Shown here in pieces: positions 6,153 through 17,428 of a stretch of 38,863 nucleotides of DNA. The stretch is from assembly GCA_902797235.1 (NCBI GenBank), contig CADBSB010000075.1, forward strand, positions 1 through 38,863, in the 5' to 3' direction. Each line of letters opens with the position of its first letter. The stretch's first letter is position 1. The translations under genes were made by a program, and so were the position numbers. Under the pieces are notes generated by a model. The model had not been told where the DNA came from. It made no database searches and saw only the letters and a list, made by a program, of their open reading frames with translations. This DNA comes from an uncultured Ruminococcus sp. Its GTDB lineage: Bacteria > Bacillota > Clostridia > Oscillospirales > CAG-272.

Positions 6153-7820
6153 ATGAAAAACAAATTTTTGAAATTTACCGTTATAATACTCGTTTTGGCG
6201 TTCGTCCCCGTTTTCCCGGCGCTCGCGATCGAAAGCGAGGGACTTTTTCAGATCGAAAGCGATCATTCTACTCTCATATCGTGCGACGCGATAAACGACG
6301 ATAACGGAGACGTGATAACACAGATCAATTATTTCGGCCCGCACAGCGCGCAGATCACTCAGGAATTGAGCGGCGATAAGATAACGCTTGTCGGCTTTGT
6401 CGTATGCGACGTCAAATTCACGTCGTTCGGTTACGGTTACGTATCGGACGGCGGAACGGCTGTGATGAACAGCGAAAAGCTCGGCGATGAGGACGGCTAT
6501 CTGAATTCCACGTTCGGCTTTGTCGTAGGTGAAACGGGCGAGGCGTCGAGATTTTCGATCGACGTACCCGTGTATGACGGTGACAACGAGTTTTACGCGC
6601 TCATAGAGCTTGAAGACGGAAGCATATACGAGATATTACACGTATTGTATAAGGGAACAAACGGAAAGAAGCCCGAATATCCGAAGGAGCAGGACGTTGC
6701 CGTTACCGTCACGGTCGACGGGACGGATATAAAAAACAAACCGTACACCGTCTCCGCGTATATAAACTACGACTATTTCTTCATCGACATGGAGGACGTG
6801 ACGGAGGAGATAGATAAGAAATTCGGCGGCGAGTACGCGGTAAGGGAAATACTCATAAACGGTACCGAGGTCGATTTCGGCGATCAGTACGACAATATGC
6901 CGCGCGGCGATCTGCTGATATTAGACGGTTACGAGGACGGCGACGAAATATCCGTAACGTATGAAAAGGTAGCGTCCGCGACGATCGACCCAAATTATGA
7001 AGGCGGAAAAAAGATAAAGGTCAGGGCGGTGCACGGCGCGCCCGTATCGTTTGACGAGGTCTATGCGAGAAAAGACATGATAATAGTCGATTACAACACA
7101 AAGCCGGACGGCAGCGGAGAATCCTGCATAGTCGACGGGTACGCCGTTTTCCCGTCCGATCTCGGTATCGATCTGAACGGTCTCACCTTATACGCGATAT
7201 GGAAGGAGCTTGGTATCCCCGGCGACGTCAACGGCGACGGACGCTTGAACAACAAGGACGTCGTAACTCTGTTCAGGTACGTTTCCGACTCGAACACAGC
7301 GTGCGATGAATTTGCGGCGGACGTGAACAACGACGGGCGCTTGAACAACAAGGACGTCGTAAACCTGTTCAGGTACATTTCGGGCGGCGACGTAAAGGCG
7401 TATTATTACGGCTATAAGCTGAATCAGAGCGTCTCGGGCTTTAAGTTCGAAGTGCCGAAGGGCTTTGTTGAAGCCGGAGCGGACGACGAAAGCCTCGTGC
7501 TTTTCGGTATTTACGGCGACGTGATTATCGCGGAGGTATCGGCCTGGCCGTCGTATATGACGCTTTCGCAGGTGTCCGACGCGCAGTTCAGACAGATCCT
7601 TGAAAGCAACGCGAACGTCAAGGTCGATTCGATAACACGTACGACGATAAACAAAGCTTACGCCGTGCGCGTTAAATACACGATGAAGGAAGGAAATACC
7701 GCGCCGTGCGAGGCGGTGTTCATAGTAAAGGACACGTCGCTTTTAACGCTTACGTATATCGACGCGTCCGGGCTTTATACGTCCGATCTTGAAAAAACCG
7801 TGCTGTCGGTAAAATGGTAA
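6153..7820 (+). CDS. Secreted protein with internal type I dockerin module
   Basis: Protein of 555 residues with an N-terminal signal peptide (about 1-25, ending near ALA). Residues 26-350 are acidic and beta-rich and match no family I can name; about 290-350 resembles a bacterial repeat segment ending in a conserved LYAIW. A dockerin lies at about 355-411: two duplicated calcium-binding loops, DVNGDGRLNNKDVV and DVNNDGRLNNKDVV, each followed by LFRY. A further domain of about 140 residues follows (YKLNQSVSGFKFEVP to the end), which looks like a small PsbP/DcrB-type fold but is not certain. Dockerins bind cohesins on scaffolds or the cell surface; one in the middle of a chain is less common than a terminal one. 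The ribosome site AGGGAG precedes the ATG. No catalytic motif is seen. Confidence 0.75.
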   Translation: MKNKFLKFTVIILVLAFVPVFPALAIESEGLFQIESDHSTLISCDAINDDNGDVITQINYFGPHSAQITQELSGDKITLVGFVVCDVKFTSFGYGYVSDGGTAVMNSEKLGDEDGYLNSTFGFVVGETGEASRFSIDVPVYDGDNEFYALIELEDGSIYEILHVLYKGTNGKKPEYPKEQDVAVTVTVDGTDIKNKPYTVSAYINYDYFFIDMEDVTEEIDKKFGGEYAVREILINGTEVDFGDQYDNMPRGDLLILDGYEDGDEISVTYEKVASATIDPNYEGGKKIKVRAVHGAPVSFDEVYARKDMIIVDYNTKPDGSGESCIVDGYAVFPSDLGIDLNGLTLYAIWKELGIPGDVNGDGRLNNKDVVTLFRYVSDSNTACDEFAADVNNDGRLNNKDVVNLFRYISGGDVKAYYYGYKLNQSVSGFKFEVPKGFVEAGADDESLVLFGIYGDVIIAEVSAWPSYMTLSQVSDAQFRQILESNANVKVDSITRTTINKAYAVRVKYTMKEGNTAPCEAVFIVKDTSLLTLTYIDASGLYTSDLEKTVLSVKW

Positions 7821-12397: not shown

Positions 12398-13714
12398 ATG
12401 TCGATAGTAACCAAATTCGGCGGCACGTCGCTTGCCGACGCTGATAAATTCAAACAGGTAGCCGATATAGTAAAAGCCGATCCCGAAAGGCGGTACGTCG
12501 TCGTATCCGCGCCGGGCAAGCGCTTCAAGGGCGATTTCAAAATAACCGATATGTTTTACCTCTGCTACGAAAAAGCCGTTGCGGGAGAAAACATAGACGT
12601 GTTGTTCAACGAGATAACGGAGCGTTATCACGAGATAATCGAGGGGCTGAACCTCACCATCTCCGTCGACCGCGAGCTTGACCGCATCAGAAACGCCATG
12701 TATAACATGACCGGCCGCGATTACGCCGCGTCCCGAGGAGAATACTTGAACGCGCTCATCCTCTCCGCCTATTTAGGCTACGATTTTATCGACGCGCGCG
12801 AAGTCGTTTTCTTCAACAACGACGGCACGTTCAACGCCGAATACACGAACGACGTGCTCTCCGCAAGACTGAAACGCCACGAAAGAGCGGTATTCCCGGG
12901 CTTTTACGGCGCGATGCCGAACGGCACTATAAAGACGTTTTCACGCGGGGGCTCCGATATAACGGGCTCGATCGTCGCACGCGCGGCGGGCGCGAAGCTG
13001 TACGAGAACTGGACGGACGTTTCCGGCTTCTTAATGGCTGACCCGAGAATCGTTGAAAATCCGAAGATAATAAACACGATAACCTACCGCGAGCTGCGCG
13101 AACTTTCGTACATGGGCGCGACTGTGCTTCACGAGGATTCCATATTCCCCGTACAGATAGCCGGCATACCGATAAACATAAGGAATACCGACAGACCGGA
13201 GGACAAAGGCACTATGATAGTCGCCGAAACACCGATGTACGATACTAAAAACGTCATTACGGGCATAGCCGGAAGAAAAGGCTTCACCGCGATAAACATA
13301 TCGAAGGACCTGATGAACGTTGAGGTCGGTTTCGGCAGAAAGGTGCTCGGCGTGCTTGAAAAGAAGAACATTTCCTTTGAGCATCTGCCGTCCGGCATCG
13401 ACACGATGTCCGTTATAGTCAAAAGCTCGGAGATTTCCGGCAGGCTCGACTACATTTTGAACGGCATACAGCAGGAGGCCTGCCCCGATTCGATAAGCGT
13501 TGAGGAAAACATCGCTCTTATCGCCGTCGTCGGCCGCGCCATGGTAAAATCAAAAGGTACCGCGGCAAAGGTCTTCAAGGCTATCGCCGAGGCGGATATA
13601 AACGTAAAGATGATAGACCAGGGCTCCGACGAGCTGAATATCATTATCGGCATTGAAGAAAAAGACTTTGAAAAAGCCCAAAAAGCAATATATTCGGAAT
13701 TTATCAAGGGCTGA
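12398..13714 (+). CDS. lysC: Aspartate kinase (monofunctional)
   Basis: Protein of 438 residues, the normal size of monofunctional aspartokinases. It phosphorylates aspartate to aspartyl-4-phosphate, the entry to lysine, meso-diaminopimelate, threonine and methionine synthesis. The ATP-site motif KFGGTS is at 6-11. FSRGGSDITGS and LYENWTDVSGFLMADPR mark the Asp-binding and catalytic core, and two ACT domains occupy about 300-438 (INISKDLMNVEVGFG and LIAVVGRAMVKSKGTAAKVF), the allosteric end-product sensor. AAGGAG lies before the ATG. No lysine riboswitch or attenuator is seen in the 21-base gap upstream, so it is expressed with the VanY gene. The gene letter could differ by isozyme; the function is secure. 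Confidence 0.93.
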   Translation: MSIVTKFGGTSLADADKFKQVADIVKADPERRYVVVSAPGKRFKGDFKITDMFYLCYEKAVAGENIDVLFNEITERYHEIIEGLNLTISVDRELDRIRNAMYNMTGRDYAASRGEYLNALILSAYLGYDFIDAREVVFFNNDGTFNAEYTNDVLSARLKRHERAVFPGFYGAMPNGTIKTFSRGGSDITGSIVARAAGAKLYENWTDVSGFLMADPRIVENPKIINTITYRELRELSYMGATVLHEDSIFPVQIAGIPINIRNTDRPEDKGTMIVAETPMYDTKNVITGIAGRKGFTAINISKDLMNVEVGFGRKVLGVLEKKNISFEHLPSGIDTMSVIVKSSEISGRLDYILNGIQQEACPDSISVEENIALIAVVGRAMVKSKGTAAKVFKAIAEADINVKMIDQGSDELNIIIGIEEKDFEKAQKAIYSEFIKG

Positions 13715-13732: not shown

Positions 13733-13761
13733 TTGATTTTTCCGCTCTTTAATGATAAAAT
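13733..13761 (+). promoter_or_regulatory. Sigma-A promoter of the T-box transcript
   Basis: TTGATT (13733-13738), a 17-base spacer and TAAAAT (13756-13761) lie immediately upstream of the T-box leader. Transcription would begin near 13768, in the A-rich run just before the leader's first stem. Confidence 0.75.
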
Positions 13762-13770
13762 CACAAAAAA

Positions 13771-14030
13771 AGAAAAGCGTTGACGGAGAAAAGTAAACGT
13801 AAGGTATGATCTCAGAGAGCGCGCGGCGGGTGTGAGCGCGTATCGTATATGCGTTGAAGCTCGCTCCCGAGCCGCGATACCTAAAACGATAGTGATTAAG
13901 TGTCGCCGGTTTCCGCCGTTAAAGGGATACGCCGTTATCAAGCGGTTAAAGTTATAAACGCGGGTGGTACCGCGGGATACGTTTGTTATTTCGCCCCGAC
14001 GTCGTATTTGACGTCGGGGCCGTTTATTTT
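13771..14030 (+). promoter_or_regulatory. T-box leader with leucine (CUC) specifier
   Basis: All landmark elements can be read. Stem I: the GGAGAAAAGTA purine motif (13785-13795), pairing of AACG (13796-13799) with CGTT (13852-13855) and GTATGAT (13804-13810) with ATCGTAT (13842-13848), the AGAGAG bulge (13814-13819), and a 5-bp stem capped by the GGGTGTGA loop. Specifier loop: GAAG then CTC at 13860-13862, six bases before GAGC, the same spacing as in glyQS leaders. Antiterminator: the T-box CGGGTGGTACCGCG at 13961-13974, whose TGGT would pair with ACCA of an A73 tRNA such as tRNA-Leu. An 11-bp terminator stem follows. Uncharged tRNA-Leu should therefore permit transcription. The downstream gene is an acyl-CoA synthetase, an unexpected target. 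Confidence 0.92.
13993..14030 (+). terminator. T-box-controlled intrinsic terminator
   Basis: GCCCCGACGTC (13993-14003) pairs perfectly with GACGTCGGGGC (14010-14020) and is followed by CGTTTATTTT. It is the off-state structure of the T-box switch, ending just before the ribosome site GGAGG at 14031-14035. Confidence 0.88.
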
Positions 14031-14040
14031 GGAGGACTTT

Positions 14041-15705
14041 ATGTCTACATTTATTGAAAGGACAATAAGCGGGCAGGTGGAGTACATAGCCAAGACCATG
14101 CCCGATCATCCGGCCGTCTTATATCATTCCGGCTTTGATTTCAGAAAGACTTATAAAGAGCTTGACGAGGAGTGCGACAGAGTTGCAAAGGCTTTCCTTG
14201 CGCTCGGCATCAAAAAGGGCGACCATATAGCCATGTGGTCGACGAACTACCCTCAATGGATAATCACGCTTTTCGCGGCGTCAAAGATCGGCGCGGTTTT
14301 CGTGACGGTGAATACCAACTATAAAATATACGAGGCGGAATATCTGCTGAAACAGTCGGACAGCGCGTGCCTCGTCATGAACCGCGGATTCAAGGACACG
14401 AGCTACGTCGATATAATGAAAAAACTCGTGCCCGAGGCATCAAAGCAGGGAGACGGCTTCAAATCAAAGCGCCTGCCCGTGCTTCACCATATAATAACGA
14501 TAGACGAGGATATAGACGAGCCGGGAATGCTCCCGTGGGAGAAATTCAAAACGCTCGGCGACAGCATATCCGACGAGGAGCTGGCGGCGGCAAAGGCGAA
14601 GAACGATATACACGACGTTGTGAATATACAGTACACGTCGGGCACCACGGGCTTCCCGAAGGGCGTAATGCTGACGCACTACAATATTTTAAACAACGGT
14701 CTGTCTATCGGCGACTGCATGAAATTCTCACCGGTCGACAAGCTCTGCATACCCGTGCCGTTCTTCCACTGCTTCGGGCTCGTGCTCGCTATAATGGCTT
14801 GCATAACGCACGGCTCGACGATGGTCCCGGTCAACTATTACAGACCGCTTGAAGTGCTTGAAACGCTTGACGCGGAGCAGTGCACCGCGGTACACGGCGT
14901 GCCGACGATGTATATAGCGATGCTGCAGCATCCGCGCTTCAAGGAATTCAAATTCAACCTCAGAACCGGCATCATGGCGGGCTCGCCCTGCCCGGTCGAG
15001 ATGATGAAGCGCGTCATCGACGAGATGGGTATGCGCGAGATAACGATAACGTACGGGCAGACCGAGGCGTCGCCCGGCTGTACGATGACGACGACGGACG
15101 AGACGTTAGAGCACCGCGTGAATTCCGTCGGAAAGGCCATGCCGAATATAGAGACGAAGATAGTCGACCCCGAGACGGGCAAAGATCTTCCGGACGGCGT
15201 GAACGGCGAATTCGTCGCGCGCGGCTACAACATCATGAAGGGCTACTATAAAATGCCGGAGGCGACGGCGCAGGCGATAGACAAGGACGGGTGGCTGCAC
15301 ACCGGCGACCTCGCGTGCCGTATGCCCGACGGGTATTATAAAATAACCGGACGTATTAAGGATATGATCATCCGCGGCGGCGAAAACATTTATCCGAAGG
15401 AGATTGAGGATTTCCTCTACACGCACGAAAAGGTGCGCGACGTTCAGGTCGTCGGCGTGCCGAGCGTGCAGTACGGCGAGGAGGTCTGCGCGTTCATAAT
15501 CCCGAATGACGGTATGACCGTGACGGAGGATGAGATAAAAGAGTACGTGCTTGCAAACATGGCGCGCCACAAGGTGCCTAAATACGTGATAATAACGGAC
15601 AGCTTTCCGATGAACGCGGCGGGCAAGATACAGAAATTCAAGCTCCGCGACATGGCGACGGAAATGCTGGGGCTGCAGGACGCGGCGTCTATTGTAACGG
15701 CATAA
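14041..15705 (+). CDS. AMP-forming acyl-CoA synthetase (fatty acid:CoA ligase family)
   Basis: Protein of 554 residues. The start at 14041 is fixed by GGAGG at 14031-14035; an in-frame upstream ATG at 13900 falls inside the T-box and is rejected. ANL superfamily motifs are complete: the phosphate loop YTSGTTGFPKG from 198, YGQTEASP, the adenylate Asp in TGDL at 421-424, the hinge GRIKDMIIRGGENIYPKEIE, and the catalytic C-terminal Lys at about K529 in AAGKIQK. The pattern is that of FadD/medium-chain acyl-CoA synthetases, making acyl-CoA from acid, ATP and CoA. Control by a leucine T-box suggests the physiological acid may be a branched short-chain acid such as isovalerate. It is first in an operon with an epimerase-like and an amidohydrolase gene. 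The family is secure; the substrate is inferred. Confidence 0.88.
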   Translation: MSTFIERTISGQVEYIAKTMPDHPAVLYHSGFDFRKTYKELDEECDRVAKAFLALGIKKGDHIAMWSTNYPQWIITLFAASKIGAVFVTVNTNYKIYEAEYLLKQSDSACLVMNRGFKDTSYVDIMKKLVPEASKQGDGFKSKRLPVLHHIITIDEDIDEPGMLPWEKFKTLGDSISDEELAAAKAKNDIHDVVNIQYTSGTTGFPKGVMLTHYNILNNGLSIGDCMKFSPVDKLCIPVPFFHCFGLVLAIMACITHGSTMVPVNYYRPLEVLETLDAEQCTAVHGVPTMYIAMLQHPRFKEFKFNLRTGIMAGSPCPVEMMKRVIDEMGMREITITYGQTEASPGCTMTTTDETLEHRVNSVGKAMPNIETKIVDPETGKDLPDGVNGEFVARGYNIMKGYYKMPEATAQAIDKDGWLHTGDLACRMPDGYYKITGRIKDMIIRGGENIYPKEIEDFLYTHEKVRDVQVVGVPSVQYGEEVCAFIIPNDGMTVTEDEIKEYVLANMARHKVPKYVIITDSFPMNAAGKIQKFKLRDMATEMLGLQDAASIVTA

Positions 15706-15715
15706 GGAGGATAAG

Positions 15716-16531
15716 ATGATGAAGCTTTCGTTTTCAACTTTGGGCTGCCCGGAATGGCATTGGAGCGACATATACGCCACCGCGCGCGATTTAGGCTACG
15801 ACGGCGTTGAGATACGCGGCATAGGACGCGAGATGTTCGCGCCGAAGATGAGCATTTTCAGCCATGAGAATATAGAAAACACGAAAAAGACGATAGAGGA
15901 CGCGGGTTTGCAGATACCGCTTTTCACCACGGCGGCGTACTTATCCGACCCGTCTCAGCTTCCGCTTGCGGAATTTGAAATACTCGCATACTCTCAGCTC
16001 GCGCAGAAGCTCGGCGTAAAATACGTGCGCATAATGGGCGAGAAAACGCCCGAGCCGCAGTATGAAACGACTGTGGACGAGCTTGCGGAGCAATACGGAA
16101 AATTCTGCGATCTCGCCGCCCCCTACGGCGTGACGCTGCTTATTGAGACGAACGGCATTCTGGCAAAGAGCGCGGATATGAAAAAGCTGATAGAAAAAGC
16201 GGACAGAGAAAATTCCGGCGTTATCTGGGATATACACCACCCGTACAGATTTTTCCGCGAGACGCCCGCGGAGACCGCGAAAAACATAGCGAAATACGTG
16301 CGCCACGTCCACGTAAAGGATTCCTATATAGAAAACGGCGCGGTGAAGTACGCTCTTATGGGCTACGGCGACATACCGGTCGAGGATATAAAGCACGAGC
16401 TTGATAACGTCGGCTTTGACGGATTTTATTCATACGAATGGGTCAAGCGCTGGGTGCCGGAGCTTGAAGGATCCGGTATAGCGTTCCACAGCTACGCCGA
16501 TTACATGAGGTCGATAGATGAAGATATTTGA
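15716..16531 (+). CDS. Sugar phosphate isomerase/epimerase-like TIM-barrel protein
   Basis: Protein of 271 residues of the AP-endonuclease-2-type xylose isomerase-like TIM-barrel family (IolE/YcjR/hydroxypyruvate isomerase relatives). Typical metal-site strands are visible: FSTLGCPEW at the N-terminus, GYDGVEIRG, LLIETNG with a metal-binding Glu, VIWDIHHPYRF, and RHVHVKDSY. AAGGAGG lies just before the tandem ATGs at 15716 and 15719. It starts 10 bases after the acyl-CoA synthetase and overlaps the next gene by 14 bases, so the three are one transcription unit under the leucine T-box. Substrate cannot be told from sequence; an aldose/ketose epimerisation or a keto-enol isomerisation is typical of the family. 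Confidence 0.82.
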   Translation: MMKLSFSTLGCPEWHWSDIYATARDLGYDGVEIRGIGREMFAPKMSIFSHENIENTKKTIEDAGLQIPLFTTAAYLSDPSQLPLAEFEILAYSQLAQKLGVKYVRIMGEKTPEPQYETTVDELAEQYGKFCDLAAPYGVTLLIETNGILAKSADMKKLIEKADRENSGVIWDIHHPYRFFRETPAETAKNIAKYVRHVHVKDSYIENGAVKYALMGYGDIPVEDIKHELDNVGFDGFYSYEWVKRWVPELEGSGIAFHSYADYMRSIDEDI

Positions 16532-17318
16532 CGTACATACGCATATTTACCCGGACGCCATAGCGGAGCGCGCCGTCGCCGCGCTTGACAAATTCTATGA
16601 ATTCGTGTCGGACGGCAAAGGAACGTACGACGATCTTGCGGTTTCAAGCAAAAAGAACGGCGTAAGCGGCTTTCTTCTCCTTTGCGTCGCGACAAACGCA
16701 CACCAGATACACAGAGTAAACGAATCTATAATATCCGCCGTCAAGCGCGGACGCGAGGACGGGTTCGAGGCGTACGCCTTCGGCGGTATGCACCCGTGCG
16801 ACAATATGGAGGAGGAGATCGAATTCTGTATAAATAACGGTCTTTCCGGCATAAAGATACACCCCGATATACAAGGCGTCGATATAGACGATAAGCGGCT
16901 TTATCCGCTGTATGAAATGGCGAACGGCAGATTCCCGATATACTTCCACAGCGGAGACGACAGACCGCAGTATAAGTTTTCCACGCCCGAAAAGCTTGCA
17001 AGGATATTAAAGGAATTCCCGAAGCTCGTCGTCGTCGCCGCGCATTTAGGCGGCTATATGGCAAACGACGAGGCGATAGAGTACCTGCGCGGAAACGACC
17101 GCGTCTGGTACGATACGTCGTCCGCTCTGTGGGCGATGACGACGGAGCGGGCGGATGAGATAATAAGCGCGCTCGGAGTCGAACACATGATGTTCGGAAC
17201 GGATTATCCCGTAAAATACGCCGATTCCGAGCTTGAAAGGTTTTATAAGCTCCGCCTGACGGAAAAGGAAAGAGAAGACATTTTGTATAACAACGCAAAA
17301 GCGTTTTTGAAAAATTAA
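16518..17318 (+). CDS. Amidohydrolase family metal-dependent hydrolase
   Basis: Protein of 266 residues of the amidohydrolase-2 (ACMSD-like) group. It has the N-terminal HxH metal motif in FDVHTHIYPD, IKIHPDIQG, the metal-binding His in IYFHSGDD, AAHLGG, and the catalytic Asp in FGTDYP. Members hydrolyse or decarboxylate small cyclic or carboxylated compounds. It overlaps the preceding isomerase gene by 14 bases and is followed by a terminator, so it ends the T-box operon. The precise reaction is unknown. Coupling with an epimerase-like barrel suggests a small carbohydrate or lactone pathway, but the tie to leucine or acyl-CoA metabolism is unclear. Confidence 0.82.
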   Translation: MKIFDVHTHIYPDAIAERAVAALDKFYEFVSDGKGTYDDLAVSSKKNGVSGFLLLCVATNAHQIHRVNESIISAVKRGREDGFEAYAFGGMHPCDNMEEEIEFCINNGLSGIKIHPDIQGVDIDDKRLYPLYEMANGRFPIYFHSGDDRPQYKFSTPEKLARILKEFPKLVVVAAHLGGYMANDEAIEYLRGNDRVWYDTSSALWAMTTERADEIISALGVEHMMFGTDYPVKYADSELERFYKLRLTEKEREDILYNNAKAFLKN

Positions 17319-17399: not shown

Positions 17400-17428
17400 T
17401 TGACAAAACGGATAAGACGGAGTATAAT
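17400..17428 (+). promoter_or_regulatory. Consensus sigma-A promoter of the MarR/ABC exporter operon
   Basis: TTGACA (17400-17405), exactly 17 bases, and TATAAT (17423-17428): a perfect match at both hexamers. It overlaps the tandem operator-like sites, so strong basal activity is probably held down by the repressor. Confidence 0.95.

Follow-up and report, generated by a model that had tools for sequence, protein, structure and literature searches.

A leucine T-box before an acyl-CoA synthetase gene in an uncultured Ruminococcus, and a proposed salvage of branched short-chain acids

We found that a transcriptional leucine T-box stands directly before the gene of an AMP-forming acyl-CoA synthetase (ACS) in the window, that is, in the whole stretch of 38,863 nt (contig CADBSB010000075.1 of assembly GCA_902797235.1, from an uncultured Ruminococcus sp.) that was analysed. 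The earlier note on this DNA had described this arrangement; the leader was confirmed in our analysis, and sequence could hardly give a stronger case for a leucine T-box at this place. The best explanation, which we consider quite probable, is a salvage route under T-box control that turns branched short-chain acids into branched-chain amino acids (BCAA). This interpretation, too, had been proposed before, and genomic context supports it. The strongest evidence in the sequences comes from the conserved genes of the downstream operon, from a LeuA-like protein (LEUL) and from parallel isoleucine and valine systems.

The leader RNA and the genes behind it

The T-box lies on the forward strand between lysC (12398-13714), an aspartate kinase gene over its cut-off, and a putative operon of three genes. 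An Rfam covariance search with the full model placed it at 13771-14001 (RF00230, E 3e-26), and its 120.2 bits exceeded the curated cut-off of 93. Stem I (13775-13875), which holds the AG bulge, the GGTG loop and the specifier loop, was recognised by our covariance model R1 at 74 bits, a score obtained for a leader that itself belongs (as L006) to the building set of R1. In the sequence, the motifs AGAGA and GGTG were located at 13814-13818 and 13829-13832, and the specifier loop reads GAAGCUCG, with a 4-bp stem, GGAG/CUCC, beneath it. Covariance alignment and sequence place the specifier codon CUC (leucine) at 13860-13862, followed by a G, and the leucine reading of the earlier note was thus kept. 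An alanine (GCU) or serine (UCG) register found no support in the covariance alignment. Further downstream, the UGGU of the T-box bulge (13965-13968) is complementary to the ACCA end of an A73 tRNA, and a strong predicted intrinsic terminator hairpin of 12 bp (13993-14020), with a T-rich tail after it, would compete ahead of the gene; folded alone it gave -25.2 kcal/mol, and 0 of 200 shuffles were as good. The genome indeed contains a tRNA-Leu(GAG) with the acceptor end CTCGC-A-CCA, i.e. A73, so that the specifier codon matches a genomic tRNA whose discriminator base is compatible, as had been anticipated. The promoter claimed for this leader stands less firmly: a forward-strand site, TTGATT-17-TAAAAT, is present at 13733-13761 and agrees with 9 of 12 consensus positions, but the call is weak on its own because five sites of that quality were found in 3.9 kb against 3.4 expected.

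The reading of the specifier was checked inside the genome. The covariance search listed five T-boxes for the assembly, four of them over the cut-off, and on the same alignment the remaining four read UGG, ACC, GUC and AUC before a trpX-like gene, thrS, valS and ileS, respectively. Both valS and ileS were over their NCBIfam cut-offs; the trpX-like gene reached 213 bits, below its cut-off of 390, and thrS, which is cut by a contig end, 276 bits, below 384. Since the codons of these four T-boxes match their downstream genes, the CUC reading counts as checked. Upstream of the tryptophan T-box of this genome, a match resembling Gut-1 RNA was also seen (L002:1212-1284; 45.9 bits, below the cut-off of 50).

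We rejected the idea of a decayed, hitch-hiking T-box, because specifier, UGGU and terminator are intact and orthologues in other genera have similar leaders; a reading as leucine catabolism was likewise rejected.

The gene behind the leader, on the forward strand like the rest of the operon, occupies 14041-15705, and its product carries the AMP-binding (323.1 bits) and AMP-binding_C (58.6 bits) domains over the Pfam gathering scores, in agreement with the earlier note. Its nearest model, the PRK12583 fatty acid CoA ligase (NF009233), was matched at 721 bits, below the curated 832. Because ACS matches general ligases, its substrate cannot be read from similarity; we propose it as an isovalerate--CoA ligase. 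It is followed by TIM (15716-16531), a xylose-isomerase-like TIM barrel (AP_endonuc_2, 101.7 bits), which in many relatives is the N-terminal fusion partner of ACS (~840 aa in all), and by AMH (16518-17318), an Amidohydro_2-type hydrolase (95.3 bits) and the last gene of the putative operon, which several relatives keep in the same gene order. A phmmer comparison with solved structures pointed to no function for TIM (best 22 bits) or AMH (best 55.7 bits). Neither of them has a role in the proposed path, and this counts against the best explanation. Beyond the operon, a perfect TTGACA-17-TATAAT promoter is present at 17400-17428, at the start of a MarR-type open reading frame listed from 17397; the true start of this frame is probably further downstream.

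Leaders before orthologous and related synthetases

The earlier note had asked whether orthologues of ACS carry leucine T-boxes. We surveyed 146 genomes, including that of the window, and detected ACS in 91 of them at E <= 1e-100. Thirty loci from this survey and 80 named ones, from a set of at least 80, gave, after five duplicates had been dropped, 105 distinct loci. The model R1, a covariance model of Stem I, was built on 43 leaders that a script had picked for their pairing in lower Stem I; this selection accounts in part for the covariation seen in helices 1 and 2, and helix 3 played no part in the choice. By R1, a leader was present upstream of ACS or its operon at 51 of the 105 loci. The specifiers of these 51 were CUC in 46 and CUG in three, and two leaders had an aberrant 3' side (L015, L026), of which L015 is CUC on the Rfam alignment and L026 is not readable with confidence. 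R1 found no leader in 45 of the 96 orthologous loci that have at least 420 nt upstream; the other 9 of the 54 leaderless loci have less than 420 nt, and the 45 include one from the window's own genus (L009, G006). A leucine T-box before ACS is common but not universal, and the expectation thus held for about half of the loci. One ACS locus (L045) lies on a contig titled Balneolales, possibly a mis-binned contig.

The Stem I pairing script returned 108 leader matches in the loci examined, exact duplicates removed. Fifty-nine rows (58 distinct, L077 appearing twice) lie directly before LEUL, ACS or TIM and read, by the script, CTC in 55 cases, CTG in three and GCT in one; the carriers of CUC leaders include the named species Acetanaerobacterium elongatum (L042) and Candidatus Formimonas warabiya (L077). 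Another 38 rows lie directly before XACS, a second synthetase, and read ATC in 24 cases, GTA in 12, CTG in one and TCC in one. Two further GTA leaders precede XACS genes that are cut off, and one more precedes ilvE-ParA-vorBAG (L175). The GCT (L186) and TCC (L199) rows are register errors and read, by eye, CTC and GTA. An exception that remains is the XACS leader L188:12405-12668 (G078), which reads CUG (leucine) whereas its sister leaders read GUA (valine). The last eight rows precede unlabelled genes, including thrS and valS of the window genome, and false hits seem to be among the remaining six. The script also missed leaders that R1 or Rfam found, including L017, L023 and L024 (three of 13 re-tested) and L091. 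Rfam located ten T-boxes in four clusters (three each in L181 and L185, two each in L188 and L190), all with E <= 1e-13 and two of them over the gathering score.

At another locus (L078:3757-3914), a T-box antiterminator without a recognisable Stem I precedes ACS, TIM and KFOR genes in the order ACS, TIM, PorC/VorG-like, 4Fe-4S, alpha and beta. We did not accept it as a full T-box and left its codon uncounted; it is possibly a stemless or decayed T-box.

Parallel synthetases and the LeuA-like protein

XACS (~755 aa) consists of HTH, cupin and AMP-binding parts and often precedes, singly or as a pair, ParA-, VorB-, VorA-, VorG- and IlvE-like genes. The one XACS scanned (L105) had MbcS (NF047394) as its nearest NCBIfam model, at 435.8 bits and below the curated 850. 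The closest solved structure was 3etc_A (640.9 bits), which we take to be a Methanosarcina enzyme preferring small branched acids. All three systems stand within 20 kb of each other in L181: an AUC leader before XACS (1416-1656), a GUA leader (6535-6779) before XACS, ParA, VorB, VorA, VorG and IlvE, and a CUC leader before LEUL and the TIM-ACS fusion. The first two are T-boxes for isoleucine and valine, each ahead of an MbcS-like HTH-cupin synthetase in a vor-ilvE cluster.

We further compared the XACS sequences with their leaders in a tree of 39 rows, namely 37 leader-linked XACS and two synthetases of the window genome, with one GTA row omitted as too short. The 24 AUC-linked XACS and the window genome's L195 formed one group, whose support of 94/91 fell slightly short of the starred level; the GUA-linked XACS lay outside this group. 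The specifier labels required five changes on this tree against a shuffled mean of 13.5, and 0 of 200 shuffles were as low; the sequence groups of XACS follow the specifier codon. Since MbcS takes 2-methylbutyrate and isobutyrate, and isovalerate poorly, a likeness to MbcS would suit isoleucine and valine rather than leucine. The pattern fits what is expected if XACS serves isoleucine and valine and a separate subfamily, ACS, serves leucine.

In many relatives LEUL stands between the leucine T-box and the TIM-ACS fusion. It was compared in 43 copies (L075:1656-3125 and 42 others), and both histidines of the catalytic HxH were replaced in all 43, so that the metal-binding residues of LeuA are not kept. 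The GDG of the leucine-binding (allosteric) domain was kept in 43 of 43, and the two LEUL scanned contained HMGL-like and LeuA_dimer domains and scored below the LeuA cut-offs. We infer that LEUL may be a leucine sensor acting on TIM-ACS. The putative metal site of TIM, as judged by D172, is kept in 31 of 32 proteins where TIM is separate and in 37 of 38 where it is fused without LEUL; in the LEUL-bearing architecture the site is eroded, with D172 in 22 of 42 and E241 in 23 of 42. This hints that the functions of TIM and LEUL may overlap.

Gene content, the proposed route and known systems

Presence of LeuB, LeuC (as hacA_fam), IlvC and VorB was judged by curated cut-offs in the 111 genomes that are at least 90% complete (110 if low contamination is also required). 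ACS and LeuB occurred together in 16 genomes, ACS only in 49, LeuB only in 37 and neither in nine. For ACS and VorB the corresponding counts were 58, 7, 10 and 36; for XACS and VorB, 53, 2, 15 and 41; and for XACS and IlvC, 13, 42, 38 and 18. In the 50 genomes where none of LeuB, LeuC and IlvC passed its cut-off, ACS and VorB were both present in 40, and in 37 together with XACS; in the 43 genomes that have all three de novo genes, these numbers were seven and five. Fisher values for these associations overstate the evidence, because the genomes are related, partly incomplete (mostly draft) and not independent. Absence of LeuB or LeuC refers to one model each, with cut-offs that miss divergent forms; the control genomes were over cut-off in 9 of 14 cases for LeuB, 7 of 14 for LeuC and 14 of 14 for IlvC. 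It speaks against the best explanation that LeuB is present in 16 of 65 ACS-positive genomes and IlvC in 13 of 55 XACS-positive ones, and that VorB stays below cut-off in seven of the 65 ACS-positive genomes.

The window genome (88.8% complete) contains the three kinds of gene that the proposed route calls for. Besides ACS, it has a VorB over cut-off with adjoining VorA- and VorG-like genes on contig 10, which bears out the predicted 2-oxoacid:ferredoxin oxidoreductase, and an IlvE over cut-off on contig 188. Contig 59 holds XACS, and contig 195 a related synthetase; R1 found no T-box in the stretches around the XACS and vor genes of this genome. The absence of leuABCD predicted for it was borne out in part: LeuB and LeuC were not found over cut-off, the best LeuB match being nearest to isocitrate dehydrogenase models and over no cut-off, and IlvC and IlvD were likewise absent over cut-off, with no match at all, but LeuA is over cut-off, as is a citramalate synthase, on contig 131 (L122:594-3669). 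LeuA beside a CimA-type gene, with no LeuB or LeuC over cut-off, was also seen in G003, G006, G010 and G011.

In the mechanism that we propose, leucine shortage would let uncharged tRNA-Leu(GAG) accumulate; pairing of its anticodon with CUC, and of its ACCA end to UGGU, would let the antiterminator form and the ACS-TIM-AMH operon be transcribed. ACS would then make the CoA thioester of a short branched acid, with isovalerate the likeliest candidate; Vor, encoded elsewhere in the genome, would turn isovaleryl-CoA, with CO2 and reduced ferredoxin, into 2-oxoisocaproate, which IlvE would aminate to leucine. In relatives, the XACS that AUC or GUA T-boxes control would turn 2-methylbutyrate or isobutyrate into the CoA thioester and feed the adjacent vorBAG and ilvE. 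To a wider proposal we give an even chance: that many Clostridia, having lost de novo BCAA synthesis, use three synthetases under cognate leucine, isoleucine and valine T-boxes for isovalerate, 2-methylbutyrate and isobutyrate, one shared Vor and IlvE, and LEUL, with its catalytic site lost and its leucine-binding domain kept, as a leucine sensor that restrains the isovalerate synthetase.

The synthetases might instead supply primers for branched membrane fatty acids (isovaleryl-, 2-methylbutyryl- and isobutyryl-CoA for FabH), with the T-boxes merely sensing the amino acids from which these primers otherwise derive. MbcS of Staphylococcus aureus does so for two acids (PMC10026030), and the scanned XACS is MbcS-like. 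However, T-boxes report tRNA charging rather than lipid need, the clusters contain vorBAG and ilvE, and genomes in which LeuB, LeuC and IlvC were not found carry the module more often, which fits amino acid supply; we regard this alternative as unlikely.

Lower still is the probability that the pathway runs in the oxidative direction, with 2-oxo acids turned by Vor into branched acyl-CoA and the synthetases taking part in amino acid catabolism. Vor can work in both directions and is used by peptide fermenters, but a T-box turns its operon on at amino acid shortage, the wrong moment for catabolism, and AMP-forming synthetases spend ATP toward acyl-CoA. Equally improbable, in our view, is that ACS activates another acid needed at leucine shortage, e.g. 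one that goes into a metabolite derived from leucine, and that TIM and AMH are its partners in catalysis. In proteins where TIM stands alone or is fused in the absence of LEUL, the retained putative metal site indeed suggests that it may have enzymatic activity; this account, however, leaves unexplained why isoleucine and valine have systems of the same kind, why Vor and IlvE are shared, and why the module goes with missing de novo genes.

The analysis names a concrete candidate gene for activating each of the acids. If salvage of branched acids holds, acid activation would join the processes that T-boxes control. The specifier codon would predict the substrate of the synthetase, a prediction that can rarely be put to so direct a test. 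Such salvage would also explain BCAA synthesis in organisms without LeuB, LeuC and IlvC, and make it easier to predict where isovalerate, 2-methylbutyrate and isobutyrate are cross-fed.

The leader has the same parts as known transcriptional T-boxes (RF00230), namely Stem I, specifier, UGGN bulge and antiterminator/terminator, and leucine T-boxes are known, e.g. before leuA in Geobacter (PMC2700814, PMC2494555); it differs from them in its target, an acyl-CoA synthetase. The main text of a T-box survey (PMC2494555) contains none of the strings CoA, ferredoxin and fatty, and acyl only inside 'aminoacyl'; the same holds for the text of the TBDB paper. Within the open-access literature searched, T-box and acyl-CoA synthetase came together only in unrelated passages of PMC2700814.

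The proposed chemistry is that of the rumen isovalerate carboxylation route. Isovalerate, 2-methylbutyrate and isobutyrate as precursors of leucine, isoleucine and valine are credited to Allison and co-workers (PMC7356843, whose reference list holds Allison papers of 1962, 1966 and 1971), and the same overall conversion is described in methanogens (PMC10658910). The passages of PMC7356843 on this route leave the activation genes and their control unnamed; here each acid would have a synthetase with a cognate T-box. MbcS of Staphylococcus aureus activates 2-methylbutyrate and isobutyrate, with butyrate and isovalerate as poor substrates (PMC10026030). It is the nearest NCBIfam model of the scanned XACS, which differs in its N-terminal HTH-cupin part, its score below cut-off, its vor neighbours and its T-box control; the window's ACS is nearest to a different model, PRK12583. 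LEUL resembles LeuA, 2-isopropylmalate synthase, in its domains and its GDG, and departs from it in the replaced HxH. Taken together, the RNA class and the chemistry are known; what is new is their combination, with three cognate amino acids, and its new elements are the activation gene, the control of that gene by tRNA sensing, and the parallel channels for isoleucine and valine.
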